Positions 43,467-59,529 of a stretch of DNA of 64,000 bases are shown here, one piece after another (the stretch's first letter is position 1; each line of letters opens with the position of its first letter). The DNA is taken from NCBI RefSeq assembly GCF_000428985.1, contig NZ_AUAZ01000016.1, forward strand, positions 1-64,000. The letters are read 5' to 3'. Source of the DNA: Marinobacterium litorale DSM 23545. Lineage in GTDB: Bacteria; Pseudomonadota; Gammaproteobacteria; Pseudomonadales; Balneatricaceae. Below the pieces are notes generated by a model. The model did no database searches. It was given only the letters and a program-made list of their open reading frames with translations, and was not told the origin of the DNA. The position numbers and the translations under genes are program-made.

Positions 43467-45794
43467 TCAACTCTGTGTATCACGCTGATGCTTCTGCAGC
43501 CACAGCTCAAACTCCGCCAGGCGCATCGGCTGACCGTAGAGAAAGCCCTGTAGCAGGTCACAACCGCTGTCAATCAGCGCCTGGGCCTGGGCTTCGGTTT
43601 CTACACCCTCGGCGGTGACCTTGAGACCACGCGCGTGGCAGAGAGAGATTATCGGCTCCAAAAGGGCGAAGTTTCCGGGAAGCATCAGCCGTTCGACGAA
43701 ACTGCGATCCAGTTTGATCTTGTCCACCGGGTATTCCAGCATCTGCATCATCGAGGTGTAGCCGGTACCAAAGTCGTCGATGGCGATCTGCAGACCCAGA
43801 TCGCGCAGGCGATGCAGCAACTGGTCGCGCTGACGGCTGGCGTCGACCCCGACGGTTTCGGTCATCTCCACTTCGATCATGTCGGCCGGTACCGACAACA
43901 ACTGGATCTGTTCACCGATATACCGATCCACATCGCCGCCGGTAAGCTCTGCCGACGACAGGTTGATCGATAGCTGCACCTGACGGCCGATCATGTTGCT
44001 CAGTGCGGCGAAGTCAGACAACGCCTGCGCGATCACCCACCGGTCCAGCTTACTGTAAAGACCGGTGCGCTCAGCAATGGGGATAAACTGATCAGGTCGC
44101 ACTGCGCCCAACACCGGCGAGTACCAGCGCAGCAGCGCTTCACACCCGGCAATCCGACCTCTTCCGTCCAGAATCGGCATATAGGTGAGGAAAAACTCTT
44201 CATCAAAATCGATCGCCTTGAGCTGATGTTCGATCTCCAGCGACCAACGCGCCTGACGGGCCAGCTCCTGAGAATAAAACGCGACCTGGTTCTTACCGCC
44301 GTTCTTGGCCTGGTACATGGCGGTATCCGCGTTGGAGATCAGCTGAGTGATGGTATGGCCATCCTGTGGATAACGCGCAATGCCCACACTGCAGGTCACC
44401 GGATAGCTGCCCATTTCAAACCGATAGCCCCCTTCAACCAGTCCCAACAGCGCCTGGGCCACACGCTCGCAGTGGTTCTCATCCTGATACCGATAGAGCA
44501 GTACCGCGAACTCATCACCGGCAAGACGCGCCAGAATCGCCTGGCCGGCTCTGGGTGAGCGCTCGGTCTCCTGCTTCACCAGCACACCGGCTCGCTGAGA
44601 GAATGATTTAAGCAGGGCATCACCCACACTGTGGCCGTACTTGTCATTGACGAACTTAAAGTGATCCAGATCGATATAGAGCAGTGCTACATGGTAGCCG
44701 TGGTCGCTCGCAGCCTTGAGTTCACGAACCGCCATTTCATAAAAATGGTTGCGGTTGGGCAGCTCGGTGAGTGTATCGCGCTCAGCCAACTCCCGTGATC
44801 GCCGATAGGCATCGGATAACTGGCCGTAGAGCTGTTGGAAGCGCTGCGCCAGCCGCCCGATCTCGTCTCGGCTCTGGATATCGATACGGTTGCGCTGTCC
44901 GTGCATCACATCGTTCAGCTGATGCTCCAGCTCCGCCACCGGCTCCGTAATAAAGCGCCGCATCAGTGAAGTCAGCAGTAGCGCACATAACCCGCTCAGC
45001 ACCAGAGCACCGATCGTCAGCCCCTGAGCCAGGGTCGTCAACTGCTTGGCAACAAACCGCTCATCCGGCTCCACGCGCAGGTAGAGGGAAGGCAATAACC
45101 GAACCTCGTGCTCCAGTAGCCGAGGCCTGGGCCCACTCTCTTCACTCCAGGTCACGCGTGCATCGTAGGCCTCCACCAGCTCGGCCAGCTGCTGATCAAA
45201 CGCATTCAGCTCCACGGCAATCTGCACCAAAACGCTGTTCTCACGCTGAGTGGCCAAGGGGGCGGCAAAGGTTCGTCGGTCGATCAACTTGTGATGAATC
45301 AGGAGTGAGTCACCGGTTTCCGTACGCTCAAGGCTTACACCGCTGAGCCCGCCACTCAGCCAGGCCTGCCGCGCCTGATCAAGCTCTACGTTGCTGATCT
45401 CGCTGAACGGGTTATCGGTACTGGCAAAGTAAAATTCGGGCACCGCCGCGGGCCCGAATACCGTAAACGACAGATAGTCAGAGCGTTGCCGTGTCAAATT
45501 ACCCAGAGCGGCTTCCAGCTTGCTGCCCAGGGCCTGCTGCCGGTAGCTGTTATCCTGCTCCAGCAGAAATTGGTGGAGTGCTTCAGATTCCGACAGGGCA
45601 AACAGATAACTGTCGGCAAAGGACGCGTACACCGAGAAGGTGGAGCGCAACTCGGTGAGTTTGTTGCTCAGCCGCGCCTGCTCCAGCCGTTCAACCGATG
45701 AACGTTCCGCATAGTAGACCGCCACGGCGACCAGCACATAACTGGCCAGCAGTACCGGAACGATAAGAAAGGCGGCGCGCTTACTGAGATTCAT
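43467..45794 (-). CDS. Membrane GGDEF-EAL protein, MbaA-like, coupled to a polyamine-type binding protein
   Basis: A 775-residue cyclic-di-GMP enzyme with membrane segments at about 8-28 and 255-277, a periplasmic domain of about 225 residues between them, HAMP (about 278-330), GGDEF with LAGDEF (active-type sequence) and EAL with CEALLRW and IDDFGTGYTS. The layout matches Vibrio cholerae MbaA, which reads the periplasmic polyamine-binding protein NspS. The gene starts inside the end of the PotD-like gene (14-bp overlap), so the two are certainly coupled. The identity as MbaA is inferred from architecture and the neighbour. Confidence 0.9.
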   Translation of the reverse strand: MNLSKRAAFLIVPVLLASYVLVAVAVYYAERSSVERLEQARLSNKLTELRSTFSVYASFADSYLFALSESEALHQFLLEQDNSYRQQALGSKLEAALGNLTRQRSDYLSFTVFGPAAVPEFYFASTDNPFSEISNVELDQARQAWLSGGLSGVSLERTETGDSLLIHHKLIDRRTFAAPLATQRENSVLVQIAVELNAFDQQLAELVEAYDARVTWSEESGPRPRLLEHEVRLLPSLYLRVEPDERFVAKQLTTLAQGLTIGALVLSGLCALLLTSLMRRFITEPVAELEHQLNDVMHGQRNRIDIQSRDEIGRLAQRFQQLYGQLSDAYRRSRELAERDTLTELPNRNHFYEMAVRELKAASDHGYHVALLYIDLDHFKFVNDKYGHSVGDALLKSFSQRAGVLVKQETERSPRAGQAILARLAGDEFAVLLYRYQDENHCERVAQALLGLVEGGYRFEMGSYPVTCSVGIARYPQDGHTITQLISNADTAMYQAKNGGKNQVAFYSQELARQARWSLEIEHQLKAIDFDEEFFLTYMPILDGRGRIAGCEALLRWYSPVLGAVRPDQFIPIAERTGLYSKLDRWVIAQALSDFAALSNMIGRQVQLSINLSSAELTGGDVDRYIGEQIQLLSVPADMIEVEMTETVGVDASRQRDQLLHRLRDLGLQIAIDDFGTGYTSMMQMLEYPVDKIKLDRSFVERLMLPGNFALLEPIISLCHARGLKVTAEGVETEAQAQALIDSGCDLLQGFLYGQPMRLAEFELWLQKHQRDTQS

Positions 45795-46833
45795 GCAACT
45801 TTCTTATGGCATGGGTCATACGCTGACGTAGCAACAGATTCTCATCGGAGATCGGCTCATACAGCTGGCGCTTTGCCATCACCGACTCCGGTGGGTAAAC
45901 GGTTTGATCTGCGCGCACCTCGGAGCCAAGCAACGCCCGCGCGGCACGGTTGGGTGTACCCACCCAAAGCGCTTCGGCGTTCAGCGCGGCAATTTCAGGA
46001 CGGTTCAGGAAATCGATAAACCGCTCTGCCCAACGGGCTTGAGGGGAATCCGTCACCACCGAGAGGCAATCGACCCACAGAATCGTGCCCTCATCAGGCA
46101 CCACATAGTGCCACTGCTCACTACCACTGATCGCGTTAAGCACTTCCTGGTCACCGCTGTAGACGGTTGCCATATAGAGCTCATCAGCCTGGGCTGAGGT
46201 TTGCAGGTAGGTAATGGCGTAGTCGTAGGTGAGCACCGCCGGGACCTGCTGGCGCAGAGCTTCAAAGGTCTGCTCAAGCTCGCCACGGTCGTCGGTATTG
46301 ATAGAGTGACCGTTCAACAACAGAGTGGGCGCGAGCATATCAGTGATATCGTCCATCATACCGATATGTCCATAAAGCGCCGCCGGGGGCTCCATTATAT
46401 CGGCCCAGCTGGTGGGCTTCGCTACCTTGTCTGCCCGGTAAGCAATCCCTAACGTCCCCCACATGTAAGGTACCGCGTACTGACTGCACTGGGCCTGGAA
46501 TTCGGGCTCCAGATGCTGCAGGTTGGGCGCCTGCTCACGCGTGGGTGCATGAATGAGGCCGCGCTCACCAAACAGACGGGACGCCACCTCATCGACAACG
46601 ACCAGATCAATGTCATGGCGCCCCACATCCACCAGAATCTGGTCTCGGCGCTCGTCGTTGTCGAAGTAGACCTGATCAATACGAATACCGGTTTCGACCT
46701 CCCAGCGCTCGATCACCGCCGGGTCCAGGTACTCCTCCCAGTTGAGCAGCGTTAACGTCTCGGCACCAGCAGCGGCTGTTATTCCCAGTAATCCCGCCAC
46801 TGCGGCTACCCAGCGTATCCTGTCCTTTTGCAT
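45781..46833 (-). CDS. PotD/NspS-like periplasmic polyamine-binding protein
   Basis: A 350-residue exported protein with signal peptide (VAAVAGLLGITAAAGAE) and the PotD-type start LTLLNWEEYLDPAVIERWE. Later segments VPYMWGTLGIAYR, VVPDEGTILWVDCLSV and AERFIDFLNRPEIA are family-typical and carry the acidic and aromatic residues that line polyamine sites. ATG 46833 follows an AGAGGG; a longer frame exists without signal. No potABC genes adjoin it. Its overlap with a GGDEF-EAL gene points to a sensing role as in NspS. Confidence 0.88.
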   Translation of the reverse strand: MQKDRIRWVAAVAGLLGITAAAGAETLTLLNWEEYLDPAVIERWEVETGIRIDQVYFDNDERRDQILVDVGRHDIDLVVVDEVASRLFGERGLIHAPTREQAPNLQHLEPEFQAQCSQYAVPYMWGTLGIAYRADKVAKPTSWADIMEPPAALYGHIGMMDDITDMLAPTLLLNGHSINTDDRGELEQTFEALRQQVPAVLTYDYAITYLQTSAQADELYMATVYSGDQEVLNAISGSEQWHYVVPDEGTILWVDCLSVVTDSPQARWAERFIDFLNRPEIAALNAEALWVGTPNRAARALLGSEVRADQTVYPPESVMAKRQLYEPISDENLLLRQRMTHAIRKLHESQ

Positions 46834-46934
46834 CAGTGCCCTCTGATCCAGGAGCGATTCCAGCCAGAAAAATCCGAGTATACCAATCCTCGGGGACAGT
46901 GAAAGCGCCCTGTTAAATCCGGGTTCACGCACTG

Positions 46935-46968
46935 CTGTCATAAAGTGATCACGTTGTTCTGATTTAAT
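46935..46968 (+). promoter_or_regulatory. Pho box and -10 of the second tat operon
   Basis: CTGTCAT, AAAG and TGATCAC (46935-46952) form one perfect and one partial PhoB half-site. TTTAAT (46963-46968) begins exactly 10 bp later, the same spacing as at pstS and phoB. The second tatA start lies 35 bp downstream. Confidence 0.72.
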
Positions 46969-47003
46969 CCGCAGCCGAATTCCTGTGAACTGAGGACAAC
47001 TCC

Positions 47004-47249
47004 ATGCTTGGCAATATCAGTATCTGGCAGCTGGTCATCGTACTGGCGATCGTTATTCTGCTTTTTGGTACCAAAAAGCTGCGTACCCTGGGCGGTGATC
47101 TTGGCGGCGCCCTCAGAAGCTTCAAGAAAGCGGTCAGTGACAGTGATGCAGCTCTGTCCGACAACGGCAAGCTGGAAAACGCTCAGGATGCCCGGTTCGA
47201 TAGCACCGATACCCGGTCCCAGGCAGCCGATCCCGTAACTCACAAGTAA
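47004..47249 (+). CDS. tatA: Sec-independent protein translocase TatA (copy 2)
   Basis: An 81-residue TatA with helix [18 protein letters not shown], the FGTKKLR hinge and amphipathic helix [16 protein letters not shown]. The first 45 residues are nearly those of the copy at 1749, while the tail is shorter and less lysine-rich. GAGGA lies 10 bp before the ATG. It is the first gene of a second tat operon behind a predicted Pho box, 12 bp ahead of tatB2, and divergent from the polyamine-binding-protein gene. Confidence 0.95.
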
Positions 47250-47260
47250 GCGACTGGCGC

Positions 47261-47578
47261 ATGGTGGATATCGGATTTTCCGAACTGCTGATTATCGCAG
47301 TTGTGGCGCTTCTGGTCCTTGGCCCGGACCGTTTACCCATTGCCGCGAAGACCTGCGGTCTCTGGTTGGGCCGCATCCGTCGTACCGTCGGCTCCATCCA
47401 ATCGGAGATCAGGGAGGAGCTGAAGGTTGAGGAGCTCAAGCAGGCCGCGGCTCGCAAACGGGAAACCCTGGAGCAGGAGCTGGGGCCGGTAAAGCGGAGT
47501 TTCGGTTCAAACCGGTCGGATGACGTTTCGGCTGACACAACGCGCAGCGGCGCGCCCGACAGTAAAGAGATGACATGA
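47261..47578 (+). CDS. tatB: Sec-independent protein translocase TatB (copy 2)
   Basis: A 105-residue TatB starting [20 protein letters not shown] with Glu at position 8 and the GPDRLP hinge, followed by an amphipathic and charged helix ([22 protein letters not shown]) closely resembling the first copy. The C-terminal tail is shorter than in copy 1. It overlaps tatC2 by 4 bp. TatB and TatC determine substrate recognition, so this copy may have its own specificity. Confidence 0.95.
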
Positions 47579-48318
47579 GCCCAAACACAGAATCCTCTCA
47601 GCCACTGATCGCCCATCTGGTGGAGCTACGTCAGCGTCTGCTCTACTGCGTATTGGCCGTCATCGTAATCTTCATGCCGCTGTTCTATTTCGCCAATGAG
47701 CTCTACACCTGGATCTCGGCTCCTCTGTCGCAGCTGCTGCCGGAGGGCACCAGCATGATCGCGACCGATGTTACCTCACCCTTTTTCGCCCCCTTTAAAC
47801 TCACGCTGGTACTCTCCCTGTTTCTCGCGATGCCGTTGATTCTGCATCAAGCCTGGGGCTTCCTCGCCCCTGGGCTGTACAGCCATGAAAAGCGACTGGC
47901 GGTGCCGATTCTGCTCTCCAGCATCCTGCTGTTCTATTTCGGCATCAGCTTCGCCTATTTTGTGGTATTCCCGATCATCTTCGGTTTTTTCACCAGCGTC
48001 GGGCCGGAAAACGTGGCGGTCATGACCGATATCGACAGCTACCTGAACTTTGTCCTGAAGCTGTTTTTCGCCTTTGGCGTGGTGTTTGAGATCCCGGTGG
48101 CGACGTTGCTACTGGTAGGATCAGGCATAACCAACGTACAGGACCTGACCGGTAAGCGTCCCTATGTGATCGTGGGTTGCTTCGTGGTGGGCATGCTGCT
48201 GACACCGCCGGATCTGATTTCGCAGAGCCTGCTGGCGATACCGATGTGGTTGCTGTTCGAGCTGGGTATCCTGATGGCTCGCGCCATGATCCGCAGTCCG
48301 GAAGCCGAAACCGCTTAA
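47575..48318 (+). CDS. tatC: Sec-independent protein translocase TatC (copy 2)
   Basis: A 247-residue TatC that is clearly a close paralogue of the copy at 620-1375: long stretches are identical, including the loop [12 protein letters not shown] and the [20 protein letters not shown] segment. Differences cluster in the N-terminus, the loop near residues 184-192 ([15 protein letters not shown]) and the C-terminus. It completes a full tatABC operon and is convergent with gspN, only 4 bp from its stop. Confidence 0.96.
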
Positions 48319-48322
48319 ACGA

Positions 48323-49039
48323 TTACCAACGCCAGCCGCGCTGAATCTGCTCGCCACCGCCCCGGTTCAGACCGATGGTTCGCGCCGGTTCTGCCAGCGG
48401 GCTGCCAGCGCGGATATGGCCGTTAAGGCGACTGCGCCGGGCGGCCAGATCCGCAACAAAGTTCAGCTGCTGCCCCTCACCCCGCGTCTGTGCCCTCAGT
48501 AACAGGCCCGCCTGACAATCCAGGGTTAATGTCACCTGACCAAAGGGCGCAACCAGTGGCGTCTGCAACCGTAAGTTATTACTTACAAACGCCCCCTGCG
48601 CCTGAGCACAGCCGTTTGCACGGCCTTCCAGCTGCACGGCCCCCTGCCACTGCCCTGCCCAGCTAAACGGCGACTGTGAAGCTCCCCTGGACACCCATTG
48701 ACCGGGCTGCGGGACCACATCAGCCCGCCAGCGCCAGGGCCAGCCACTCAGATGCAGTTGCCAACGTTGACCCGAGATCGCAAACCCACCCCGAGCAGTC
48801 AGCGGCCAGTCTGCTGCCAGATACCAGTTCACATCCTCGAGTTGCCAGCCGGGCCCCGCTACACGGTCAATCTGCCCTTGAATCAGGCTGCCTTGCAGCG
48901 TCTCCAACTCAAGATCCCGTGGTAACTCTAGCTGCTCCGCCCAGTAGGACAGGGGTACACCCGCCAACAGGGTGCCGGTAAACACGGTACCGCCCGCAAC
49001 CAGACAACACCCGCTCCACAGTATCGACTTCAGTCTCAA
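48323..49039 (-). CDS. gspN: Type II secretion system protein N
   Basis: A 238-residue inner-membrane-anchored periplasmic protein with one N-terminal hydrophobic segment (about 8-28) and the family pattern LPRDLELETLQGSLIQGQ and GQVTLTLDCQAGLL. GspN is an accessory subunit found in some type II secretion systems; its role is not well defined. It is the last gene of the operon and overlaps gspM by 4 bp. Confidence 0.85.
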   Translation of the reverse strand: MRLKSILWSGCCLVAGGTVFTGTLLAGVPLSYWAEQLELPRDLELETLQGSLIQGQIDRVAGPGWQLEDVNWYLAADWPLTARGGFAISGQRWQLHLSGWPWRWRADVVPQPGQWVSRGASQSPFSWAGQWQGAVQLEGRANGCAQAQGAFVSNNLRLQTPLVAPFGQVTLTLDCQAGLLLRAQTRGEGQQLNFVADLAARRSRLNGHIRAGSPLAEPARTIGLNRGGGEQIQRGWRW

Positions 49040-49470
49040 CGCCTAACCTCCCGGCTTTGCAGTGGCAAAATCACCAGCTCAAAGTTAAACCGGCCCTGGT
49101 GTGAATCGATATTCCAGGCATGGGGATACCAGCCCTGCGTTGCCAGCACCGCCATCAAGTCTCTCAGTCCATCGAGTTGAGGGCTGACACCCTGCAATGC
49201 CCATCCCCCGTCTCCAGGCTCCAGACGCGCCAAGCGCACCCCCTCAGCCTGCGCTAGCTGGCCCAGTTTCTGGGCATCGAGCTCGGTACTTTCCACCAGC
49301 TGTCCACTGAGCTGATAGAGCGAACACCACTGCTCCAGAGCATGCTGCTGTTTCAACCACTGCTGAGCACCCAGCCAGGCGCACAGCAGGGCGCTGATGA
49401 TCAAAGCAACCGTCAGACGCTGCCGCTCTGCCCGGGGCCGACTTTGCCAATACTGCTGAATAACACTCAT
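49036..49470 (-). CDS. gspM: Type II secretion system protein M
   Basis: A 144-residue bitopic inner-membrane protein: cytosolic N-terminus, one membrane segment near 20-37 and a periplasmic ferredoxin-like domain. GspM stabilises GspL in the assembly platform. Similarity is modest, as usual for GspM, and the call relies partly on position: it overlaps gspL by 4 bp upstream and gspN by 4 bp downstream. Confidence 0.82.
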   Translation of the reverse strand: MSVIQQYWQSRPRAERQRLTVALIISALLCAWLGAQQWLKQQHALEQWCSLYQLSGQLVESTELDAQKLGQLAQAEGVRLARLEPGDGGWALQGVSPQLDGLRDLMAVLATQGWYPHAWNIDSHQGRFNFELVILPLQSREVRR

Positions 49471-50759
49471 TTCTGTCCGCTCTCCGGGCGATCCGCTGTC
49501 TCTCCGCGATACAGGGTGTAAACGGCAGGGCCATCGTCAACCGACTGTTGCCAACGTAAACCGCCGACCTGCTCATCCCACGCCTGCTGTAACTGGCTCA
49601 GCTCCGGTGCTGTCTCTGGACCACGCCAGCTCAAGCGCAGACGCTCGCCCGCCTCGGTGCGCGCAAGATGTTCGAGCTGCCAGCCCGGATTCTGCCGCAG
49701 CCATTGCTCAACGCGACGATAGCGATCCTCGCTGTCCGCCAGCTCAAGCAGCGGCTCCTGCCGGGCATGGAGCTGCTGCATCAACTGGCGTCTTACGCGC
49801 TCCAGCGGCAACGCAGCACTGTGCCCCAGTCGCTGCGCCAGCGACTCCCGGTAATAGGCCTGCGCCTGTTGGGCTTGAACCCAGGTAAGCAGGCCGTAAC
49901 CCACCATAGCCAGCAGAGCCCAGGCCAGCGGTTTACGTAACACGGTCAGCTCATCTGCCAGGCGGTGCCAGATGGTATCCAGAACCCGGGCAGCATCAGC
50001 CGATTGGCGCGGCAAAAGGGACGTCCCGGCACTACGATACTGCGCTGCGAGCAGCTCCAGCGCCTCAGCTTCACTGGCACTCTCGAACTCGACCTCAGCC
50101 TGCCAGCCGGAAGGCAAGGGGGGCGGCTCCCGGTCGGGCCACGCCAGCACGCCGCCCGGGTTGTCCGGCAATACCGGTCGCACCAGTGTCAGCATCTCCC
50201 CCTGTCGCCAGAGGACGGTTTGCTGCTCCGCATCGGGCACGTATTGAAAATCCGCCAGGATCCGCCGGAGATCGATTCCATTGCTTAACGCCCATTGCTG
50301 CCATTCATCGATCAGTGGCCGGGCACACACCACCAGTTGCAGACGTCCCCACCGCTCACCAACACATACGATCTGCTGCTGCGAGACATCGCCTAGCAGC
50401 AAATCTTCCAATAGGAGTGAGTACTCACTTCTTTTGATTCCAGGCGGCGCTTCAACATCGAACAGGCTGTAATCGCTACTATTCAAAAACAGCGTTGCCG
50501 GGCTATCGCGCAACGCCATGGGCGGCAGGCCATAACCGCATCGCGTGTCCTGCCCTGGCTGCCGGAACAGCCAGCAGACTCCTGCACTGTGCCCATCACC
50601 ACCGCTGCCTAAGGGTTCTGGCGAGCCGGGCTTTAGCGGGCGCAGCAACAACTCGCCACCACGTCCGGCCTTCGTCAGACGCTTTCTCACTAACGCCGAC
50701 AGCCGCTGTCCGGGGACCGGGCGGCGATTCCCCGCCGTTCGTTGTTCAACTCTGGTCAC
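49467..50759 (-). CDS. gspL: Type II secretion system protein L
   Basis: A 430-residue assembly-platform protein that recruits the GspE ATPase. The cytosolic part contains RSEYSLLLEDLLLGDVSQQQIV, typical of GspL; one membrane segment (KPLAWALLAMVGYGLLTW, in the second half) is followed by a periplasmic domain. Translation probably starts at GTG 50759, 4 bp after the gspJ stop, with AAGAGG upstream; the open frame extends into gspJ. GspK, normally between J and L, is absent here and found at 54131. Confidence 0.83.
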   Translation of the reverse strand: MTRVEQRTAGNRRPVPGQRLSALVRKRLTKAGRGGELLLRPLKPGSPEPLGSGGDGHSAGVCWLFRQPGQDTRCGYGLPPMALRDSPATLFLNSSDYSLFDVEAPPGIKRSEYSLLLEDLLLGDVSQQQIVCVGERWGRLQLVVCARPLIDEWQQWALSNGIDLRRILADFQYVPDAEQQTVLWRQGEMLTLVRPVLPDNPGGVLAWPDREPPPLPSGWQAEVEFESASEAEALELLAAQYRSAGTSLLPRQSADAARVLDTIWHRLADELTVLRKPLAWALLAMVGYGLLTWVQAQQAQAYYRESLAQRLGHSAALPLERVRRQLMQQLHARQEPLLELADSEDRYRRVEQWLRQNPGWQLEHLARTEAGERLRLSWRGPETAPELSQLQQAWDEQVGGLRWQQSVDDGPAVYTLYRGETADRPESGQK

Positions 50760-50763
50760 TGCG

Positions 50764-51429
50764 CTACACCTCTTGCGCGGGCAACGTGAAAGTACACCGG
50801 TAAGGCGCAACTTGCGGCGCCTGCTCATCCAACATCAACAGCACCCTGACCGCCTCAGTGGCAACCCGCCCATCCGATGGGAAAGACTGCCAACGCTCTT
50901 CAACTCGAAACTCAACCTGCACCTGATCGACGCCGGTCAACTCGATAAGCGGCTGCCAGCGTGTCGCCCGTGGACTGTCCAGATCTGCACTGACCTCCAG
51001 CGCCAACCCGCCCTCCTGCTGCCAACTCAGTGCCTGGCGCTGCAGCGCACTGTATTGTCGGACCGGTACTGAAGCGAGCTGATCATCCGTTTCCGCAAAC
51101 AGACCGCCCAGGGCCGGACCATTCAGTGCCACCCACTCCAGACGCTGTTGATCCGGCAGCCACTCCAGACGTTCGTTGTAGAGCGCTAACCCCTGTGTGT
51201 GCAGCGGTCGCTCGACGAGCGCTGCAAACCGGTTATCCAGCGCACTGCAAAGCTCCAGCACCTGCGCATCGCGGCTGTCAGTGAGCTTCGTACCCGTTTT
51301 AAGCCCCACCCATAGGTCGATCTGGGCGGCCAGCATGACACCCAACAGCGCGGTCAAGGCCAGCGCCAGTAGCAGCTCGATCAACGTCAAGCCGCGCTGT
51401 CGAGCGTTCCGATGCGGGTATAAAGCCAT
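50764..51429 (-). CDS. gspJ: Type II secretion system minor pseudopilin J
   Basis: A 221-residue minor pseudopilin. The prepilin peptidase site and hydrophobic helix are clear: RG then LTLIELLLALALTALLG. GspI, J and K form the pilus tip complex. It overlaps gspI by 1 bp and ends 4 bp before gspL. Confidence 0.9.
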   Translation of the reverse strand: MALYPHRNARQRGLTLIELLLALALTALLGVMLAAQIDLWVGLKTGTKLTDSRDAQVLELCSALDNRFAALVERPLHTQGLALYNERLEWLPDQQRLEWVALNGPALGGLFAETDDQLASVPVRQYSALQRQALSWQQEGGLALEVSADLDSPRATRWQPLIELTGVDQVQVEFRVEERWQSFPSDGRVATEAVRVLLMLDEQAPQVAPYRCTFTLPAQEV

Positions 51430-51794
51430 CAGGGAGCCGCAAGGAATAGACTGTAGTGATCGACCGGCCTCTCCCGGGCAGGGTCGCTGTATAGCGTCAA
51501 CTCCGCCCGGCGCACCGAACTCAGACCGGTGGCGCTGATCTGCGCCTGCCAGTAACAGGTCCGTTCTCCCTGCTTGATCTCGCCCGTCTGCCGCCCCGGC
51601 GCGGGCCAGTATGCTTCCACCCTAAACACCGCAGACAGCTCCCGGATGCAGAGCGCCGCATGGGTGCGGACAGCACCCATCACATGCACATCAACCCGCT
51701 GTGCCACCACCTGGCTAACCGCCAGTGACATCACCGCGGCAATAAACAGCGCCACCAGCACTTCGATCAACGTAAAGCCCCGATCCCGATGCAT
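51429..51794 (-). CDS. gspI: Type II secretion system minor pseudopilin I
   Basis: A 121-residue minor pseudopilin with an RG-FTLIEVLVALFIAAVMSLA prepilin N-terminus. It nucleates the pseudopilus tip with J and K. It abuts gspH (stop and start adjacent) and overlaps gspJ by 1 bp. Confidence 0.92.
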   Translation of the reverse strand: MHRDRGFTLIEVLVALFIAAVMSLAVSQVVAQRVDVHVMGAVRTHAALCIRELSAVFRVEAYWPAPGRQTGEIKQGERTCYWQAQISATGLSSVRRAELTLYSDPARERPVDHYSLFLAAP

Positions 51795-52277
51795 CTAACG
51801 GACACTCATCGCCAGCCGGCCGTCTCGATCTATCTGCGCCTGTCCTTCAGGCCAGCGCCACTGCAACACAGGCCCCAAGCGCTCTCCACCGGGCATCCAG
51901 ATTCGATACAACGGCATGTCCGCAGATGCGTCGCTCAGAGCCACTGCTGACAACTGCATATGTTCCGGCCAGTCCGGGCTGTCTCCGGGCCCTTCCCGGC
52001 CCAATGCTTCCCACTGCAGGCCCTGCGACAGGGCGCGCAGACGCACAAAACGGTAACCTCGCTCATCCCACACCCAACCGATCACCCAGCCCTGCAAACG
52101 CGCCCGTGCCCGGGCATCCTCAAAGCGTGCGGCCAACTGCTCCAATCTCGCTTCGTACAGGCGCCCGGGATTGCCGCCCAGCATTGCCAGGCCAAGACCA
52201 CTGATCAATCCGATCAGCGCCAGCACAAGCATCAGCTCCAGCAAGCTGAAACCCGACTGAGCGCGCCGAAACCTCAT
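51795..52277 (-). CDS. gspH: Type II secretion system minor pseudopilin H
   Basis: A 160-residue minor pseudopilin with the prepilin site SG-FSLLELMLVLALIGLISG at the N-terminus and a globular C-terminal domain. AAGGAG lies 8 bp before the ATG. It is 12 bp downstream of gspG in the standard G-H-I-J order. Confidence 0.92.
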   Translation of the reverse strand: MRFRRAQSGFSLLELMLVLALIGLISGLGLAMLGGNPGRLYEARLEQLAARFEDARARARLQGWVIGWVWDERGYRFVRLRALSQGLQWEALGREGPGDSPDWPEHMQLSAVALSDASADMPLYRIWMPGGERLGPVLQWRWPEGQAQIDRDGRLAMSVR

Positions 52278-52289
52278 CCGTAAGGCTCC

Positions 52290-52736
52290 TTAGAGTGACC
52301 AGTTACCGATATCGGCATCGGCACCCTCGCCCCCGGGAAGGCCATCAGCCCCCAGCGAGTACACATCAATCCGGCCATGCTCGCCGGGTGCCCGATACTG
52401 ATAAGCGCCACCCCAGGGATCTTCGGGCAGGCGACGGATATAACCGTCATCTCGGTAGCTGCGCGGTGCCGGCTCGATACTGGGCCTCTGAACCAACGCA
52501 GCCAGGCCCTGTTCGCTGGTGGGATAGCGCAGGTTATCCAGACGATACATATCCAGCGCCTGCTCCAGCGTGGACAGATCGGCCTTGACCTTTTGCACCA
52601 TCGCTTTGTCCTGATTGCCCAGCACATTGGGCGCGACGATGGCGACCAGCAGGCCGATGATAAAGATCACCACCATGATCTCCATCAGGGTGAAACCTCT
52701 CATTCTTGACGGTCTGGCGTAAGTAAATGCTGACAT
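52290..52736 (-). CDS. gspG: Type II secretion system major pseudopilin G
   Basis: A 148-residue major pseudopilin, subunit of the pseudopilus fibre. The leader ends MRG and is followed by FTLMEIMVVIFIIGLLVAIV; the C-terminal half has the calcium-site region and DPWGGAYQYRAPGEHG, the family hallmark. ATG 52736 with GGAGG upstream was preferred over an earlier TTG. It follows the truncated gspF by 25 bp. Confidence 0.95.
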   Translation of the reverse strand: MSAFTYARPSRMRGFTLMEIMVVIFIIGLLVAIVAPNVLGNQDKAMVQKVKADLSTLEQALDMYRLDNLRYPTSEQGLAALVQRPSIEPAPRSYRDDGYIRRLPEDPWGGAYQYRAPGEHGRIDVYSLGADGLPGGEGADADIGNWSL

Positions 52737-52761
52737 CAAAACCTCCGTTCAGATCTCGGGA

Positions 52762-53226
52762 CTAAAAGTTAAGGGCCTGATTGAGCTGCATGATCGGCAG
52801 CAGGATAGCCAGAACAATAAAGAGCACCAGCCCCCCCATGAACAGAATCATCAGTGGCTCGAATAGAGCGAGCGTGGTATCTACACGCTGGGTAAATGTT
52901 CGCTCCTGATGGGACGCGACGCGCTCCAGCATCTCATCGAGCCGTCCGCTCGCCTCGCCACTGGCAATCATGTTGACCAGCAGCGGCGGAAAGTAACCCC
53001 GCTCCCCCAAAGCCCGGTGCAGCGGGGTCCCGTTACGCACCTCTTCAGCAGACACCTGCAAGGCTTCCTGCAGAATACGATTGCCCAGGGTGTCGACGCT
53101 GACCCGCAGAGCAGTCAGTAGCGGCACGCCGCTCCCCATCAGAATGGCCAGCGCCCGGGACAGTCGCGCACTGTCGAGCAGTACCAGCAGAGCACCGACC
53201 TTGGGCAGACTCAGCAGCCGCTGGTA
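52762..53226 (-). pseudogene. gspF: Truncated gspF (C-terminal third of the type II secretion platform protein)
   Basis: GspF is the polytopic inner-membrane core of the assembly platform, about 400 residues long. Only the last 154 residues are here: the second T2SSF repeat with SARLSRALAILMGSGVPLL, FPPLLVNMIASGEASGRLDEML and the C-terminal helix LVLFIVLAILLPIMQLNQ. Upstream of base 53226 the frame continues for 16 codons that are antisense to phoX and unrelated to GspF. The N-terminal 250 or so residues, including the first cytosolic domain, are missing, so the product cannot be a working platform. Confidence 0.9.
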
Positions 53227-53231
53227 CATGG
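53226..53231. other. Deletion or misassembly junction between gspF and phoX
   Basis: GspF similarity (minus strand) stops at 53226 and PhoX similarity (plus strand) starts at 53231, so two broken genes meet within about 5 bp. Orientation fits one simple deletion: gspF should continue to the right and phoX to the left. No insertion sequence, recombinase or repeat is seen at the join. Confidence 0.85.
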
Positions 53232-54037
53232 ATGAAGGTACTCTGTACGTTGCGCGCTTCGATGAGAACGGCACCGGTGTATGGCTGCCGCTGACTCCGG
53301 AAGCCGTTGCTCAGGATGGCCGCACTCTGGGTTCTATCTTCGGTGATCTGTCCGATATCATCCTCAACACCCGCGGTGCTGCTGATGCCATGGGCGCAAC
53401 GCCGATGGACCGTCCGGAATGGTGTGCTGTCAGCCCGCTCAACGGCGACGTTTACTTCACCCTGACCAACAACACCCGCCGCACCGAAGCGAACGCTGCC
53501 AACCCGCGTATCGATAACGACTACGGTCATATCATCCGCTGGAGCGAAGCGGACGATATGTCCGGCTTCGAGTGGGATATCTTCGTATTCGGTTCCAACG
53601 ATTCCGCTTCTGCCGAAATCAACCGCTCGGGTCTGACCGACCTGAACGAATTCGCAAGCCCGGACGGCCTTGGCTTCGATAGCCGCGGTATCCTGTGGAT
53701 CCAGACGGATAACGGTTCCGACGTGGCCGACGATACCAACGACCAGGTACTGGGTGTTGTACCGTCCAACGTGGTTGATGCCGAAGGGAACCAGACCACG
53801 ATCACCGCCGAAAACCAGGAGATGCTCAAGCGCTTCTTCGTGGGTCCGAACGGCTGTGAAGTGACCGGTCTGGCATTCAACCCGGACAACACTGCGATGT
53901 TCGTCAACATCCAGCACCCGGGTAACTGGCCGTACTCTGCGGATGCTACTGAAGTGACTCCGGCCGGTACCAGTGTCCGTCCGCGCGCCTCCACAGTGGT
54001 TATCCAGAAGGCTGACGGCGGCCCGATCGGCGTCTGA
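53231..54037 (+). pseudogene. phoX: Truncated phoX (C-terminal part of a PhoX-type alkaline phosphatase)
   Basis: PhoX is a Tat-exported, calcium- and iron-dependent phosphatase of about 600-690 residues in other bacteria. Only the last 268 residues are present, beginning at DEGTLYVARFDENGTGVWLP and including RPEWCAVSPLNGDVYFTLTN and FASPDGLGFDSRGILWIQTD. The N-terminal half with signal peptide is lost at the junction with gspF. Codon choice resembles that of pstS, a sign of high expression in the intact gene. A strong terminator follows. The remaining frame extends back to 53081 only as antisense of gspF. Confidence 0.88.
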
Positions 54038-54061
54038 TCTAACGATCACTCTGCTCTATGA

Positions 54062-54095
54062 AAAAGGGGTGCAGCAACGCACCCCTTTTCTTTTA
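54062..54095. terminator. Bidirectional terminator between phoX fragment and gspK
   Basis: AAAAGGGGTGC (54062-54072) and GCACCCCTTTT (54079-54089) form a perfect hairpin with a T-rich continuation on the plus strand. It ends the phoX transcript, and its A-rich left flank could serve the convergent gspK gene. Confidence 0.9.
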
Positions 54096-54130
54096 TCAGC
54101 CAAACAACCCAACGGGCTGAGACTACACCT

Positions 54131-55204
54131 TCAGAACCCTCGCTGTAGCGTCAGCCAGTTGATTCGCTGAGCCGGCACTCTGGCGGCCCATTTGGAGACA
54201 CCCTGAAGCTGAAAATCCTGCTTGAAGGCATAGGTCTCATCATCTAACTCAATCTCGGTCTCCAGCCGGAAACGCTCCGAATTCAACACCAACCCATCCA
54301 GGATCCGCTCGGTTTGCTCCTCGCCCACACCGCTCAACGCCGCTTTAACCTCATCTGCACTTGCATAACCGATGGCCGGACGCCCCAACAACAACCGCTG
54401 CAGAATCGAGCCCGGCACCTCACCCGCATAAAGCGCTTCCAGCAGAGGTAGTTGATCCAGCGTCAGCGCATTCAGGTTCAGCCGCCAGGGGCCGGTATCC
54501 GGCCAGGCACAGAGTTCGGGGTAGCGCCAGACGCGCAAACTGTCACCCGGTGGCAGCAGATTCAGCTCGCTGAGATCAACCATTGCGGCATTGGATGGTA
54601 ACCAGGGCTGATTAGCCTGAGTGTACTGGATCGCCTCGGCACCCTGAGGCTGCGCCTGTCCATCGGCATCGATCCAATCCGTCAGGCGATCCACAAGCTG
54701 AGCGGGCGACAAACCGGCCGAACGTTGCGAACGCAGTAAGTACCTGAGCTGCCGCTGCCCCTCGGCCGACGATTCCCCTCGCAGAAGGTTTACGTTGAAA
54801 CAGGCGCGCAGATCTCGCAGCCGGATGCGTATCTGAGCGGACGGCAGCCCCTCTTCCGCCAACTCGGATACCGGCAAATCCATCCATTGCCCCTGCAATG
54901 TTTGCCAGAACAGCGGGCTTTCCCGCCAACGTCGCTGCGTCATCCCGGCTTGCACCAACAGCTGGGCAGCTCGCTGCAACTCACGGGCCTGGCGGGCATT
55001 ATGCAGCTCCCGTAACGCGGCCAACTCGGCGCGGCTCTGCTGCACCACCACCGGCAGGCCAATCGCCACCAGCGCCAGAGCGAATAACACCATCAATAGC
55101 GCAACACCGCGCTGACGATCAAACGTTGATTGAGCGGAGCAACAACCCGCAAGGGTTAAGGGACGGGGTTTATGAACGTGGCTGTTTACCGGTAAGTGCA
55201 ACAT
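54131..55204 (-). CDS. gspK: Type II secretion system minor pseudopilin K, displaced
   Basis: A 357-residue minor pseudopilin, the large tip subunit. After a leader of about 33 residues comes QRG-VALLMVLFALALVAIG; the globular part shows LRACFNVNLLRG and LTDWIDADGQ, typical of the GspK alpha domain with its calcium sites. It is usually between gspJ and gspL; here it stands alone on the far side of phoX, with its own Pho box. ATG 55204 was chosen; the leader is longer than normal and the true start could be a later GTG. Confidence 0.87.
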   Translation of the reverse strand: MLHLPVNSHVHKPRPLTLAGCCSAQSTFDRQRGVALLMVLFALALVAIGLPVVVQQSRAELAALRELHNARQARELQRAAQLLVQAGMTQRRWRESPLFWQTLQGQWMDLPVSELAEEGLPSAQIRIRLRDLRACFNVNLLRGESSAEGQRQLRYLLRSQRSAGLSPAQLVDRLTDWIDADGQAQPQGAEAIQYTQANQPWLPSNAAMVDLSELNLLPPGDSLRVWRYPELCAWPDTGPWRLNLNALTLDQLPLLEALYAGEVPGSILQRLLLGRPAIGYASADEVKAALSGVGEEQTERILDGLVLNSERFRLETEIELDDETYAFKQDFQLQGVSKWAARVPAQRINWLTLQRGF

Positions 55205-55233
55205 GATCGGCCGCTCGTTTAAGTCGACCAATC

Positions 55234-55267
55234 AGTAAACACGCTTTAGATGACAGGCCCATGAAGA
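55234..55267 (-). promoter_or_regulatory. Pho box and -10 of gspK
   Basis: On the minus strand TCTTCAT, GGGC and CTGTCAT (55250-55267) form one partial and one perfect PhoB half-site. TTTACT (55234-55239) lies exactly 10 bp downstream. The gspK ATG follows 29 bp later. Confidence 0.68.
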
Positions 55268-55312
55268 CTGTACAAGGTCTTAGATCATAAGCGCGGGCAG
55301 GCGGTTCAGTAT

Positions 55313-57388
55313 CTAACCGGCCTTGATCCAGACCTTGGTATCATGGAAGACGGCGCCACCGGCGGGTAATGCAGCTTCTGCACTGACCAGAGTGTTAATC
55401 CCTCGGCCATCCACAAAGGCTTTGTTCGGCCATATCCCTTCAACGATAACAACGCCCGGCTGCACACCCTCGAAAAGCATGACATGGACACGGACCTGGC
55501 CATGACGGTTACCCATGTACACCAGATCGCCCTCACCAACACCCAGCGCCCGACCATCGTCCGGATGTAACATGACCTGCGGCCGATTTTCCTTGCGCTG
55601 CGAGCCCGGTGTTTCCGTGAAACTGGAGTTCAGAAAAGTGCGTGCCGGCGCCGTCACCAGCCGGAACGGGTGGTCCGCATCGGCACTGTCGATCAACGAC
55701 ACATGATCCGGTAACTCTGGTAAACACCCGTCAGCGTCTCCCAGTGCCCGCCAGTCGGCCCGGAAGTGAAAACGGTTGTCCGCATGACCAAAGCCATCCA
55801 GAAAATGTGCGGTCTCAAACGGCAACCCACAGTCCACGCCTTGCCGTCGGTGGATCTCATCAGCACGGGGCAGACCGCTACCCTCCAGCGCCTGATCGAC
55901 CAGGGAGAGCTCATCCACTTCAAAAAACCGGTCACGTACGCCCAGTCGCTGCGCCAGCTCACTGACCACCCGATGGTTACTACGGCACTGAGCGTACGGC
56001 TCGATGACCGCCTTGCTCACCTGAATGGAGGTATGCCCGCTGGCGGAGTAGATATCATCGTGCTCCAGGAAAGTCGTCGCGGGCAGCAGGATATCGGCCA
56101 TGGCCGCAGTCTCGGTCATCATCTGCTCATGCACCACAACGAAGAGATCGTCACGCAGAAACCCCTCGCGCACCCGTGCCGACTCAGGAGCTACAACCAT
56201 GGGGTTGGTATTCTGTATAAACAGTGCCTTCACCGGCGGCCCGGCCCCCAGATCCTGCTTGTTCCCGGTAAGAACCGGTCCAATTCGCGACATATCCAGC
56301 ATCCGCACACCGGGCTTGCGCAATGACAGCCCCTGCAGCGGCGCACGGTCGATGTGCTGGTAAAGCCCACTGTTGGAGTAGAGCGCTCCGCCCCCCGGGT
56401 ACTGCCAGGCACCGGTGAGCGCGGGCAAACAGGTGACGGCATGCATATTGGCCGCGCCGTTACGTGAGCGACTGAAACCATAGCCGACTCGGATATAGCT
56501 TTTACGGGTGCGCCCATAAAGGCGGGCAAATTCGATGATCTGGTCGGCGCACACGCCGGTAATGTCAGCCGCCCAGGCCGGTGTCTTTGTACTCAGGTGT
56601 CGGCGCACCTCATCGTCAAAGTCGCTGTAGCGCGCCAGATAATCCTTATCCTCCAGCCCATCCGCCAGGATCTGATGCATCATGGCGCAGGCCAACGCGC
56701 CATCGGTGCCGGGCCTGAGCTTGATGTGCAGGTCGGCCTGTTTCGCCGTCGGCGTTTCATAGGGGTCGATCACCACCAACTTGGCGCCCCGCTTCCGAGC
56801 TTTGGCGATATGAGTCATCACATTGATCTGGGTATGTACCGGATTACCGCCCCACACCAGAATCAGCTCGCTCTCCTCAATCTCCAGCGCATCAACCCCG
56901 CGCACCACACCCACACCGGCTTTCCAGCCCGCGTTTGAGATCGCTACACAGATCGTTTCCTTTTGACCGGAGTAACCCATGGCATGGCGTAAACGATCGG
57001 TCGCTCCCCTTTGCGCCCAGCCCATGGTACCGGCGTAGAAATAGGGCCAGATCGCCTCAGTACCAAACTGATCGGTAATCTGCTGAAAACGTTCGGCAAT
57101 ACAGTCCAGCGCTTCGTCCCAGCTAATCGGCTCAAAGGCTTCTAATCCAACGCCCCTGGGCCCGACACGTTTTAATGGCTGAGACAGACGCTGCGGATGA
57201 TGAACCCGCTCGGCATAACGAGCGACCTTGGCGCAGATAACGCCCCCCGTATAGGCGTTTGCTTTACTGCCATGGATTCGCCCAATCCGCTGAGAGCCCA
57301 GGGTTTCAACCTCAAGAGCACAGGTCGACGGGCAGTCATGGGGGCAGACAGCGTAATGGCGGCTTGCCTCCGGTTTTCTTTTCGTCAT
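55313..57388 (-). CDS. Molybdopterin-dependent oxidoreductase (FdhF/BisC-like)
   Basis: A 691-residue molybdoenzyme. The N-terminal [4Fe-4S] motif is CPHDCPSTC followed by a fourth Cys in ICAKV; the cofactor-binding domains follow (VWGGNPVHTQINVM, NTNPMVVAPESARV) and the C-terminal beta-barrel has GDLVYMGNRHGQVRVHVM. There is no Tat signal peptide and no in-frame TGA, so it is likely cytosolic and not a selenoprotein. No subunit or maturation genes are adjacent, so the substrate is open. The ATG at 57388 has an AAGGAA site. Confidence 0.88.
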   Translation of the reverse strand: MTKRKPEASRHYAVCPHDCPSTCALEVETLGSQRIGRIHGSKANAYTGGVICAKVARYAERVHHPQRLSQPLKRVGPRGVGLEAFEPISWDEALDCIAERFQQITDQFGTEAIWPYFYAGTMGWAQRGATDRLRHAMGYSGQKETICVAISNAGWKAGVGVVRGVDALEIEESELILVWGGNPVHTQINVMTHIAKARKRGAKLVVIDPYETPTAKQADLHIKLRPGTDGALACAMMHQILADGLEDKDYLARYSDFDDEVRRHLSTKTPAWAADITGVCADQIIEFARLYGRTRKSYIRVGYGFSRSRNGAANMHAVTCLPALTGAWQYPGGGALYSNSGLYQHIDRAPLQGLSLRKPGVRMLDMSRIGPVLTGNKQDLGAGPPVKALFIQNTNPMVVAPESARVREGFLRDDLFVVVHEQMMTETAAMADILLPATTFLEHDDIYSASGHTSIQVSKAVIEPYAQCRSNHRVVSELAQRLGVRDRFFEVDELSLVDQALEGSGLPRADEIHRRQGVDCGLPFETAHFLDGFGHADNRFHFRADWRALGDADGCLPELPDHVSLIDSADADHPFRLVTAPARTFLNSSFTETPGSQRKENRPQVMLHPDDGRALGVGEGDLVYMGNRHGQVRVHVMLFEGVQPGVVIVEGIWPNKAFVDGRGINTLVSAEAALPAGGAVFHDTKVWIKAG

Positions 57389-57598
57389 CGCTCGTTCCTT
57401 GTGAATAACAAAACCTGAGGGGCTGGACTGAGGGGCTAGCAACACCCTAAATTGTTCTTGGGCAGCGCGATAGTATAGTCTTAACCAATTACTAAGAACC
57501 TATCGCTAGCGGCGACATAACAACCGAGCTTAGCAATTATAGTTAGTTGATTTATAAGGCATTAACCGCTCAGCTACCGCAGAAAGTATTACTAACAT

Positions 57599-59275
57599 TT
57601 ACTTACAATCACTTAATACCCACTTGGGTGTACGGTTATTGCCGATATTCTGAATGGTATGATCCTTCGCCCGCATCTCGGTCAGTAGATTTCGTATCTG
57701 ATTCGTCTTCTGCTCATCAGTCAGAGCACTTGATAGCTTGTCATACAGCAGCCGGTCAATGTCCGCACGGCTAGCAGAACCAAACTGTTGTAGGTGCTGA
57801 AGAATCAACTGCTTGTAGTAGTCCTTGTCCAAAGCTCGGTGCTTAGTATAGGTAGCGCGATCCTCGGGCTTCTGAGCAACGGCAGCTGAGAGAAACACGT
57901 TAGGCTTGCGCCCCTCTACGAGCTTCAGCTTACGAAGCTGCTTCAAAGCGTTCTCCGGCACCGACTTCTTCTTCTGGACAGCATCGAGCCAGATCACCAT
58001 ATCCAATGGCAGGTCCGGACCGTTCTTCAGCAGGCGCGTGTACTTCTCGTCTAACACCTGCCCGATGATATGCACTTCAACCCGCTTACTTACGCGATCG
58101 ATGTTGTACTCAGGCAGTGGGAAGAAGCGTTGCCGCTGGGCTCTGAACATGCGCTTGATACCGCTGCCGATGGTATCCATCATCTTCAGCTCAACCATGG
58201 CATGTGCCAATGCGGGATTACGGTAGCGCTCGGGCGGTACATCCTGGTTCAGTACCGTTGAGACATCTGCAGGTATGAAATCTGCCAGATTGTTGAAGAT
58301 CAGCTCGTCTGGCTTTTCAACCAGGTTGATCTTTCCGCCCAGGCTGTAGTCCTGATGCGCAATGCAGTTGTGCAACGCTTCTCGCAATACCCAGCCGTCG
58401 TACTTCGGCAGCTCTGTAGGGAAAAGAGAGTCGTCCGGCATATAGCGATAGGTAAGGTTTCTGACTGCAGCAATCGCCTGGGTACTGTTCAACAGAAATG
58501 GCAGGCCAAAGTGGCGGTAATCGATAGGGATTCCATCGCGATCTTGAACGATCCAACTAATCTGTAGATTGCTCTCGGGCAACAGGGACGCAGCTTCACT
58601 TTTCCCTAACAGAATCAGGGCAGCTCGATTCAAACCTTGATCCGTCATCAGCCGCAGCTTTTTCAGCAGGGCCGGATCATCCCAGCTAGCGACTTCATCT
58701 TCCAAGTGTGGGTTGCGCTCACAGTAGAGCCGGCGAGCCTCCTGAAGCGCCTCGGATGATAGATCATCTATCGAAGCCTCGGGCACAGGTACTGCAGACC
58801 AGTCCGGCTGTGGGCGTTGCTGGCGAATGCGCTCGATTTCGTCCAGAGAGAGTGGCCCCAACGATTCTCCGTCCCGGCCATAATAGTGACCATCCCAAGC
58901 CACAGGAGCCCCCTTAGAGGCGGCTGGAACCTGGAGCATAAGTACTCTCTTGCCGTCGCCCCAAACCTCAAAAATATCGAGGAATGTAATCCTGCCACTC
59001 GTTTTGTCAGCCACTTCCTTCTTCAGGCTCTCAAGCTGCTTAGGATCACTACGATAGCTTGTACCGACTATTTCATGACTCTTGTCCTCGACACCGAACA
59101 GGAGCCAGCCATACTCGCGGTCCTTGAGATTGGCTTCGTTGGCGATAGACGAGAAGTAACGTCCGAGCTTGGCAAAGTCGTAGTTACGCTTGGCTTCCTT
59201 GAACTCCAGCCATTCAGTTTCCACGGGCATAGCGCGGAGCTCGTCCAGAATCATCAACAAGTCATCGTGCGTCAT
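57599..59275 (-). CDS. AlbA_2 (Schlafen-like) domain protein with HATPase-type C-terminal domain
   Basis: A 558-residue protein. Residues 1-120 form an AlbA_2 domain (EWLEFKEAKRNYDFAKLGRY, LLFGVEDKSHEIVGT); the middle has the REALHNCIAHQDYSLGG motif of the putative ATP-binding HATPase_c_4 region near residue 297; the C-terminal part looks like winged helices. Proteins of this type often lie inside type I restriction and other defence loci, though their job is uncertain. It starts within the stop of the small DUF4145-like gene (ATGA overlap). Its stop is 211 bp from the molybdoenzyme gene, a gap where I see nothing. Confidence 0.83.
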   Translation of the reverse strand: MTHDDLLMILDELRAMPVETEWLEFKEAKRNYDFAKLGRYFSSIANEANLKDREYGWLLFGVEDKSHEIVGTSYRSDPKQLESLKKEVADKTSGRITFLDIFEVWGDGKRVLMLQVPAASKGAPVAWDGHYYGRDGESLGPLSLDEIERIRQQRPQPDWSAVPVPEASIDDLSSEALQEARRLYCERNPHLEDEVASWDDPALLKKLRLMTDQGLNRAALILLGKSEAASLLPESNLQISWIVQDRDGIPIDYRHFGLPFLLNSTQAIAAVRNLTYRYMPDDSLFPTELPKYDGWVLREALHNCIAHQDYSLGGKINLVEKPDELIFNNLADFIPADVSTVLNQDVPPERYRNPALAHAMVELKMMDTIGSGIKRMFRAQRQRFFPLPEYNIDRVSKRVEVHIIGQVLDEKYTRLLKNGPDLPLDMVIWLDAVQKKKSVPENALKQLRKLKLVEGRKPNVFLSAAVAQKPEDRATYTKHRALDKDYYKQLILQHLQQFGSASRADIDRLLYDKLSSALTDEQKTNQIRNLLTEMRAKDHTIQNIGNNRTPKWVLSDCK

Positions 59276-59529
59276 GCGATCGTCTTCTTGCGGCCATTGG
59301 CCTGAATCCCCGCCAGCATCGCCTCGGCGGAGTTTTCACCACCGATCAGTTCAGCGTTCTGCTCGCACCTCTCAGCTGTCAAATTCTGAGCGAACGCTTC
59401 ACCCAACTGCCGTAACTTGATAAACGTGGTATTAGGATCACAGGCGAAAGAGCGCTCCGCTGCGGACGCCAACTGCACACAGATAGGATCGCGTTCACGA
59501 AGAAACTCGAAGTTGCTGCTTTCCGCCAT
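59272..59529 (-). CDS. Small DUF4145-like protein, possible hsdR remnant
   Basis: An 85-residue frame. The first 55 residues (FLRERDPICVQLASAAERSF, PNTTFIKLRQLGEAFAQNL) resemble the DUF4145 region found at the N-terminus of some type I restriction HsdR subunits. After that the sequence diverges and ends quickly with ANGRKKTIA, so no helicase or nuclease domain is present. It could be a truncated hsdR or a stand-alone small protein. Its stop overlaps the start of the AlbA_2 gene. Confidence 0.55.
   Translation of the reverse strand: MAESSNFEFLRERDPICVQLASAAERSFACDPNTTFIKLRQLGEAFAQNLTAERCEQNAELIGGENSAEAMLAGIQANGRKKTIA

Follow-up and report, generated by a model that had tools for sequence, protein, structure and literature searches.

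A window of 64,000 nucleotides from Marinobacterium litorale DSM 23545 (contig NZ_AUAZ01000016.1, positions 1 to 64,000) was analysed. On the basis of open reading frames and Pfam, positions 46935 to 55267 were found to contain a complete second tatABC operon of the twin-arginine translocation (Tat) system, the type II secretion system (T2SS) genes gspG-N and gspK, and the 3′ ends of phoX and gspF (Table 1). All three tat2 frames (47004-48318, forward strand) were whole and recognised by curated Pfam and NCBIfam models, and another TatC was encoded on the same contig at 704-1336. A first-pass annotation made from the letters alone had predicted such a complete extra tatABC operon, and this prediction was borne out, as was the clustering of gspK with the block comprising gspN, M, L, J, I, H, and G (48323-52745, reverse strand). 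The PhoX phosphatase gene placed in the same cluster turned out to be a 3′ piece only.

The pseudopilins GspG to GspK were all present, with GspG, GspI, and GspK exceeding curated cut-offs, and GspH and GspJ assigned by position and similarity. The Pfam matches of GspN and GspL lay just below the cut-offs. The row for gspL gives the longest frame, which overlaps gspJ, and the true start is probably further in. A working T2SS was judged by the secretin GspD, the ATPase GspE, and the platform protein GspF. GspD and GspE were found neither in the window nor in the strain's own genome (G000), and GspF was not whole, as 246 of the 409 residues of the reference protein were gone.

The break in the locus was defined by comparison with two species of the same genus, G002 and G003. 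Both share one gene order (L121 and L194 in G002, L120 and L195 in G003), in which tatABC reading rightward is followed by gspN-M-L-J-I-H-G-F-E-D-C and a uxpA-like gene reading leftward, phoX reading rightward, and gspK reading leftward. The uxpA-like gene and phoX are divergent in both congeners, with the T2SS genes on the uxpA side; the window has lost uxpA. In the window, the 3′ ends of gspF and phoX meet near 53230, where the borders of the two homologies overlap. The matching points are separated by 7,623 bases in G003 and by 7,626 in G002. One stretch of around 7.6 kb, beginning midway through gspF and ending midway through phoX, is absent, which comprises the 5′ parts of these two genes, the uxpA-phoX promoter gap, and the gspE, gspD, gspC, and uxpA-like genes that the relatives' order contains and the window's locus lacks. 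The remaining gspF piece encodes one T2SSF domain, compared with two in the relative. The PhoX piece was 91.5% identical to G003 PhoX, with an incomplete catalytic domain and no signal peptide. The stretches TCEEN, FRHEG, and GDDSRFEY, which we take to hold metal-binding and active-site residues, fall in the lost part according to an alignment to the solved PhoX 3zwu. We therefore read the region, with a probability of about 80%, as the remnant of a phosphate-scavenging secretion locus that is whole in two congeners and was cut by a deletion of around 7.6 kb in this strain.

Table 1. Features at positions 46935 to 55267 of the window. Percentages given "to G003" are identities to the corresponding gene of that congener; "background" refers to 546 upstream regions scored with the family matrix described in the text.
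Feature	Position	Strand	Evidence or remark
Pho-box-like site CTGTCATAAAGTGATCAC	46935..46952	+	69 bp before tatA2; reached by 4.4% of background
tatA2	47004..47249	+	PF02416; TIGR01411 above cut-off
tatB2	47261..47578	+	PF02416; TIGR01410 above cut-off
tatC2	47575..48318	+	PF00902; TIGR00945 above cut-off
gspN	48323..49039	-	PF01203, 29.0 bits vs cut-off 29.6; 44% to G003
gspM	49036..49470	-	No Pfam match; named by position and 33% identity to relatives' gene
gspL	49467..50828	-	PF05134 below cut-off; 38% to G003
gspJ	50764..51429	-	N-methylation motif only; 55% to G003
gspI	51429..51794	-	PF02501
gspH	51795..52277	-	N-methylation motif only; 55% to G003
gspG	52290..52739	-	PF08334; TIGR01710 above cut-off
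gspF, 3′ piece only	52762..53229	-	One of two T2SSF domains; residues 247-409 of the 409-residue G003 GspF
Deletion junction gspF/phoX	53225..53244	.	Overlapping homology borders; alignment to G003
phoX, 3′ piece only	53225..54037	+	PF05787 positions 285-515 of 515; residues 407-676 of the 676 of G003 PhoX
gspK	54131..55231	-	PF21687 and PF03934; NF037980 above cut-off
Weak Pho-box-like site TCTTCATGGGCCTGTCAT	55250..55267	-	Before gspK; reached by 7.0% of background

The rest of the genome did not supply the missing parts. The genome search returned a single PhoX match, the remnant itself, and no type of PhoX was found intact in G000. Several congeners carry a second PhoX, 42-46% identical, and G000 has only the remnant. 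UxpA had no match in the strain's own genome, and no second copy of GspD was found there. The only secretin, on contig C9, was 32% identical to GspD over the C-terminal half and was taken for PilQ. The search also returned five T2SSE-family matches, two of which (on contigs C1 and C2) were inspected with their surroundings and showed no type II cluster; the C2 gene had no other gsp matches within 20 kb, and the C1 gene, which is followed by a GspF-like gene, is in our reading PilB/PilC-like. We consequently rejected the idea that the genome encodes a type II system at another place, since none was found by the secretin and T2SSE-family searches or in the surroundings of the C1 and C2 genes. 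Because no other PhoX, UxpA, or GspD was found in the host genome, this strain cannot use the route predicted through Tat2 and type II secretion, and its PhoX and T2SS are dead. After the deletion, tat2 and gspK retain their own upstream regions, and gspG-N are deprived of the front of their operon.

A recent import of the phoX piece was considered in view of its 91.5% identity, compared with 45-87% for the gsp genes compared. It was rejected, as the identity to G003 at fourfold sites was 81/135 for phoX and 59/102 for tatC2, so that both are equally diverged. Weighing against a deletion is the fact that the genome is a draft of 64 contigs, in which a misjoin is conceivable; the strain would then have an intact locus, and the contig would wrongly join gspF to phoX. 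The join falls inside two genes and a single genome of the species was available, both of which fit such an artefact, but the missing genes were found on no contig, the genome is rated 100% complete, and an assembler would not usually drop 7.6 kb of unrepeated sequence and leave a clean join. We thus regard an assembly error as improbable. It is even harder to credit that the leftover gsp genes function with the secretin and ATPase of a type IV pilus to export something else. Their frames are open and of normal length, and a secretin and PilB/PilC-like genes are present in the genome, yet gspC, gspD, gspE, and most of GspF (246/409 residues) are gone, and gspG-N have lost their operon front.

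The congeners show what the deletion removed. In G003, the T2SSE and GspD models were above their cut-offs and PhoX was whole, with the motif SRRTVM; the GspC of the G003 and G002 loci was short (153 aa) and below the Pfam and NCBIfam cut-offs. With the window PhoX piece as query, matches were obtained in 50 of 96 relatives, with 91-92% identity in G002 and G003. The GspK query matched 15 of the 96, comprising itself, G002, G003, and G004 (53-61%), and others at 27-34%. The first-pass annotation would have been refuted if tat2, gsp, and phoX did not co-occur in relatives; this was not the case, as G002 and G003 both carry the complete set in a shared order. The extra Tat operon sits in one cluster with the phosphatase gene in the congeners, and around 5 kb from the phoX remnant in the window.

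Two Tat-signal cargo proteins are encoded in the intact locus. The PhoX and UxpA-like proteins of G002 and G003 have Tat motifs and lipoboxes. By eye, the twin-arginine motif was found in all eight cluster-type PhoX proteins and the lipobox in six, the exceptions being those of G408 and G425, while all seven aligned UxpA-like proteins had both motifs. The UxpA-like protein (L120:10662-12413, reverse strand, in G003) resembles SoxB, with a family match below the cut-off, a PDB match of E=2.5e-39, and a similar fold. Its structure model was of low confidence (mean pLDDT 59), and therefore only the overall fold match was used. The metallophosphatase motifs, which we presume to be DxH, GD, GNH, and GHxH, were replaced in seven of seven UxpA-like orthologues (for example, LENGQCW vs LDGGDTW in SoxB). 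The protein may not be an enzyme, and is perhaps a pseudo-enzyme.

Under phosphate starvation, PhoB would turn on phoX, uxpA, the T2SS genes, and tat2 of an intact locus. The folded PhoX and UxpA-like lipoproteins would pass the inner membrane via Tat, with Tat2 adding capacity or specificity for the cargo burst, and the T2SS would then carry both across the outer membrane. This route is plausible for the relatives. The dedicated Tat2 plus type II route envisaged in the first-pass annotation accordingly fits G002 and G003, but not the window, where the cut locus cannot perform it, and its restriction to one phosphatase was too narrow, given the UxpA-like protein encoded alongside.

In three species (the window strain, G002, and G003), Pho-box-like sites precede tatA2 and gspK at corresponding positions of the alignment. 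They were scored using a family matrix of 12 distinct sites from 16 of 27 phoB and pstS upstream regions against 546 background regions; the other 11 regions, including four with fair sites (L231, L237, L238, and L251), were left out by choice. The phoB and pstS boxes of the genus were clear. In the window, the phoB box (26892-26909) was reached by none of the 546 background regions, with phoB itself in the training set, and the pstS box (17182-17199) by 0.55%, with pstS itself in the training set. The sites before tatA2 and gspK in the window had scores of 10.6 and 8.0, and their counterparts were reached by 4.8% and 4.4% of the background in G003 and by 5.9% and 4.2% in G002, respectively. 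The first-pass annotation had given the two window sites the same spacing as those of pstS and phoB, which was correct for the 11-bp repeat, but they do not match them in strength (4.4% and 7.0% vs 0.55% and 0/546). With a matrix of E. coli sites, the tatA2 site was reached by 3.7% and the gspK site by 19.8% of 409 background upstream regions. A consensus scan yielded 13 matches at 3 mismatches compared with 9.2 expected, and 10 of 100 shuffles reached 13.

In an ungapped comparison of the window with G003, the identical bases numbered 11/60 before, 10/18 in, and 20/40 after the tatA2 box, and 19/60, 11/18, and 24/40 for the gspK box. The half-site changes in the tatA2 box seem to us to remain within the consensus. 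The box alignment is at most suggestive of Pho control, and a phosphate control of tat2 may be proposed from these weak boxes. The G002 and G003 loci (L194 and L195) were nearly identical from the tatA2 Pho-box-like site onward and unlike just before it, as if a segment that had been moved or rearranged had its border there.

More than one TatC was found in 4 of the 20 genomes searched, with two each in G000, G002, and G003, and three in the Endozoicomonas genome G066. Within the genus, the presence of TatC2 and gspK agreed in seven of eight genomes, with both in G000, G002, and G003, and neither in G001, G005, G006, and G007. A tree built from 102 TatC rows grouped the TatC2 of the window with those of G002 and G003 (92/91), beside the TatC1 clade of the genus (90/72), with M. 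alkalitolerans next (99/94). Smaller trees retained the TatC2 group (96/94 and 98/97), but placed either M. alkalitolerans next to it or Amphritea next to TatC1. These trees indicate that Tat2 is a duplicate from within the Marinobacterium lineage, and the duplication may predate the genus. An arrival of Tat2 together with the T2SS from another family was not supported by them.

To see how widespread such arrangements are, 390 genomes of the order were searched. A uxpA-like gene at 43-52% identity was found in five of them (G371, G343, G186, G408, and G425), in all of which phoX and T2SS genes adjoin it, and 37 more genomes matched at lower identity. Among 116 family genomes, at least 51% identity was found only in G002, G003, and G004, with 43 more at 26-31%. 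PhoX matched in 141 of the 390 genomes. In the best-scoring 71, with the own genome left out, the best PhoX match was read together with around 9 kb of flanking sequence in either direction, some contigs being shorter. T2SS genes lay beside phoX in 5 of these 71 loci and tat genes in 17. Chance would give around 0.5% per operon for a 20-kb stretch of a 4-Mb genome by simple arithmetic, so that 17/71 is far above chance, with the reservation that the relatives are non-independent.

Nine of the 17 tat loci were hisE-linked, namely G186, G408, G425, G392, G288, G307 and G095 (family f37, Halomonadaceae according to the TatC tree), G084, and G388, and were therefore taken as the housekeeping copy. 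In G186, G408, and G425, this was the single TatC, within 10 kb of phoX. The other eight (G066, G217, G238, G258, G367, G375, G312, and G348) had no hisE in the stretch and are apparently not the housekeeping copy; more than one TatC was shown among them only for G066. The TatC proteins of G066, G217, G238, and G258 formed a clade (100/99) apart from the hisE-linked TatC of Endozoicomonas. G367 had a lone tatA around 0.15 kb after phoX on the same strand (L253:8646-11052, reverse), with no tatB or tatC in the 20-kb stretch. In G375, tatABC is followed by phoX on the same strand (L274:8778-12755, reverse), its TatC is very divergent, and a near-perfect Pho box, CTGTCATATTGATGTCAT, lies 69 bp before tatA and was reached by none of the 546 background regions. 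In G312 and G348, phoX is followed by tatABC on the same strand (L304:7585-11227 and L306:7553-11207, reverse), with a gap of less than 0.2 kb and no hisE near. In Endozoicomonas arenosclerae (G066, L074:9431-18791, the same locus as L124), a tandem phoX pair lies around 4 kb from the extra tatABC, and one of the three TatC genes of this genome has only tatA beside it (L204).

Based on these data, we tentatively propose, at somewhat less than even odds, that private PhoX Tat translocons arose repeatedly in the Pseudomonadales, as tatABC in Marinobacterium (beside a full T2SS, a UxpA-like protein, and PhoX) and in Endozoicomonas (a paralogue clade beside phoX), as a lone tatA following phoX in another member of the Endozoicomonas family, and probably also in two more families, one with tatABC-phoX and a near-perfect Pho box and one with phoX-tatABC on a single strand. 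The inner-membrane step would limit PhoX export, and an extra Pho-controlled translocase would have been tied to the cargo gene, as with PhoD in Bacillus. Marinobacterium would have packed both membrane steps into one locus, which was lost here by one deletion. Several observations weigh against our reading of the region as the remnant of a phosphate-scavenging secretion locus. The tatA2 and gspK boxes are weak, and the forward-strand (phoX-side) site in the uxpA-phoX gap is weaker still, being reached by 8.2% of the background. Of 76 regions upstream of tatA at other TatC loci, 18 scored at least 8.0 and five at least 10. A common Pho control of phoX-linked tat genes is opposed by the phoX upstream regions of family f43, which scored only 3.8 and 4.4, and by the uneven tatA sites of Endozoicomonas, which scored 7.8, 11.0, 11.0, and 15.9, the last at another distance. 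The congener G004 (87% complete) carries gspK and phoX with a single TatC, and the clusters of other families, in G371, G343, G186, G408, and G425, manage with one TatC each; hence, systems of this kind do not generally require a private Tat.

The weak boxes and the single TatC of these other families would also suit a general spare Tat that merely adjoins the cluster and serves other or all cargo without any link to phosphate. In Campylobacter jejuni, NapA had no specific requirement for the tatA that lies within the nap operon (PMC4148689), which is a warning against inferring function from position alone. However, Tat2 is present within the genus only where gspK is present, and tat genes without hisE recur beside phoX in the Endozoicomonadaceae and in families f36 and f43, in one case with a near-perfect Pho box. 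We consider a general spare Tat unlikely, though clearly less so than an assembly error.

Parts of the proposed private Tat and type II route have precedents. In Pseudomonas putida BIRD-1, phosphate limitation raises PhoX, UxpA, GspK, and GspG, all of which disappear in a phoBR mutant (PMC5082522), and UxpB of P. putida is described as a Tat substrate secreted by Xcp (PMC5082522, PMC4509608, PMC12700990). The P. putida Xcp system with UxpB (PhoX type) and UxpA is similarly a Pho-dependent T2SS cluster enclosing phoX and uxpA, and its locus numbers place GspK, PhoX, UxpA, and GspG in the order of G003 (PMC5082522). Unlike P. putida, the Marinobacterium congeners bear an extra tatABC at the cluster end, and the system in the window is broken. 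The second Tat of Bacillus subtilis, TatAdCd, likewise lies beside the gene of a phosphate-starvation enzyme, PhoD, and is co-induced with it (PMC3068169), but this organism is Gram-positive, with a two-part TatAC, PhoD rather than PhoX as cargo, no outer membrane, and no T2SS. The Hxc/Psp system of Pseudomonas fluorescens SBW25 and the ElpS/T2SS of Caulobacter also combine a T2SS with an adjacent phosphate-starvation exoprotein, but have other cargoes and T2SS genes that are not phosphate-induced, with no Tat operon described in the portions available (PMC2225411, PMC2996285). Thus, on these sources, the secretion of PhoX through a Pho-dependent T2SS was already known, as was a private Tat that is phosphate-induced. 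The union of Tat, T2SS, PhoX, and UxpA, or the recurrence of tat beside phoX, was not found in the open-licence literature, and we consider as new both the occurrence of an extra Tat, T2SS, PhoX, and UxpA in one locus and this recurrence.

In soils and waters, PhoX liberates the phosphate bound in organic matter. If Tat capacity limits PhoX export and several lineages have tied a private translocase to the cargo gene, the question of why Gram-negative bacteria keep more than one Tat would become directly testable. The window alone is a decayed copy, and the congeners with the intact locus would offer a compact model, with inner-membrane export, outer-membrane secretion, and cargo in one locus.

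Additional features were noted elsewhere in the window. No Rfam match to an RNA element was found at 44000-60000. Strong Pho-box-like sites lie on the forward strand at 22065-22082 (score 16.8), before a 542-aa frame at 22127, and at 23831-23848 (score 14.2), before a frame at 23913 that was read as phoU. The reverse strand at 57599-59275 encodes a 558-aa protein that combines a Schlafen/AlbA_2 domain with an ATPase-like domain at its C-terminus.

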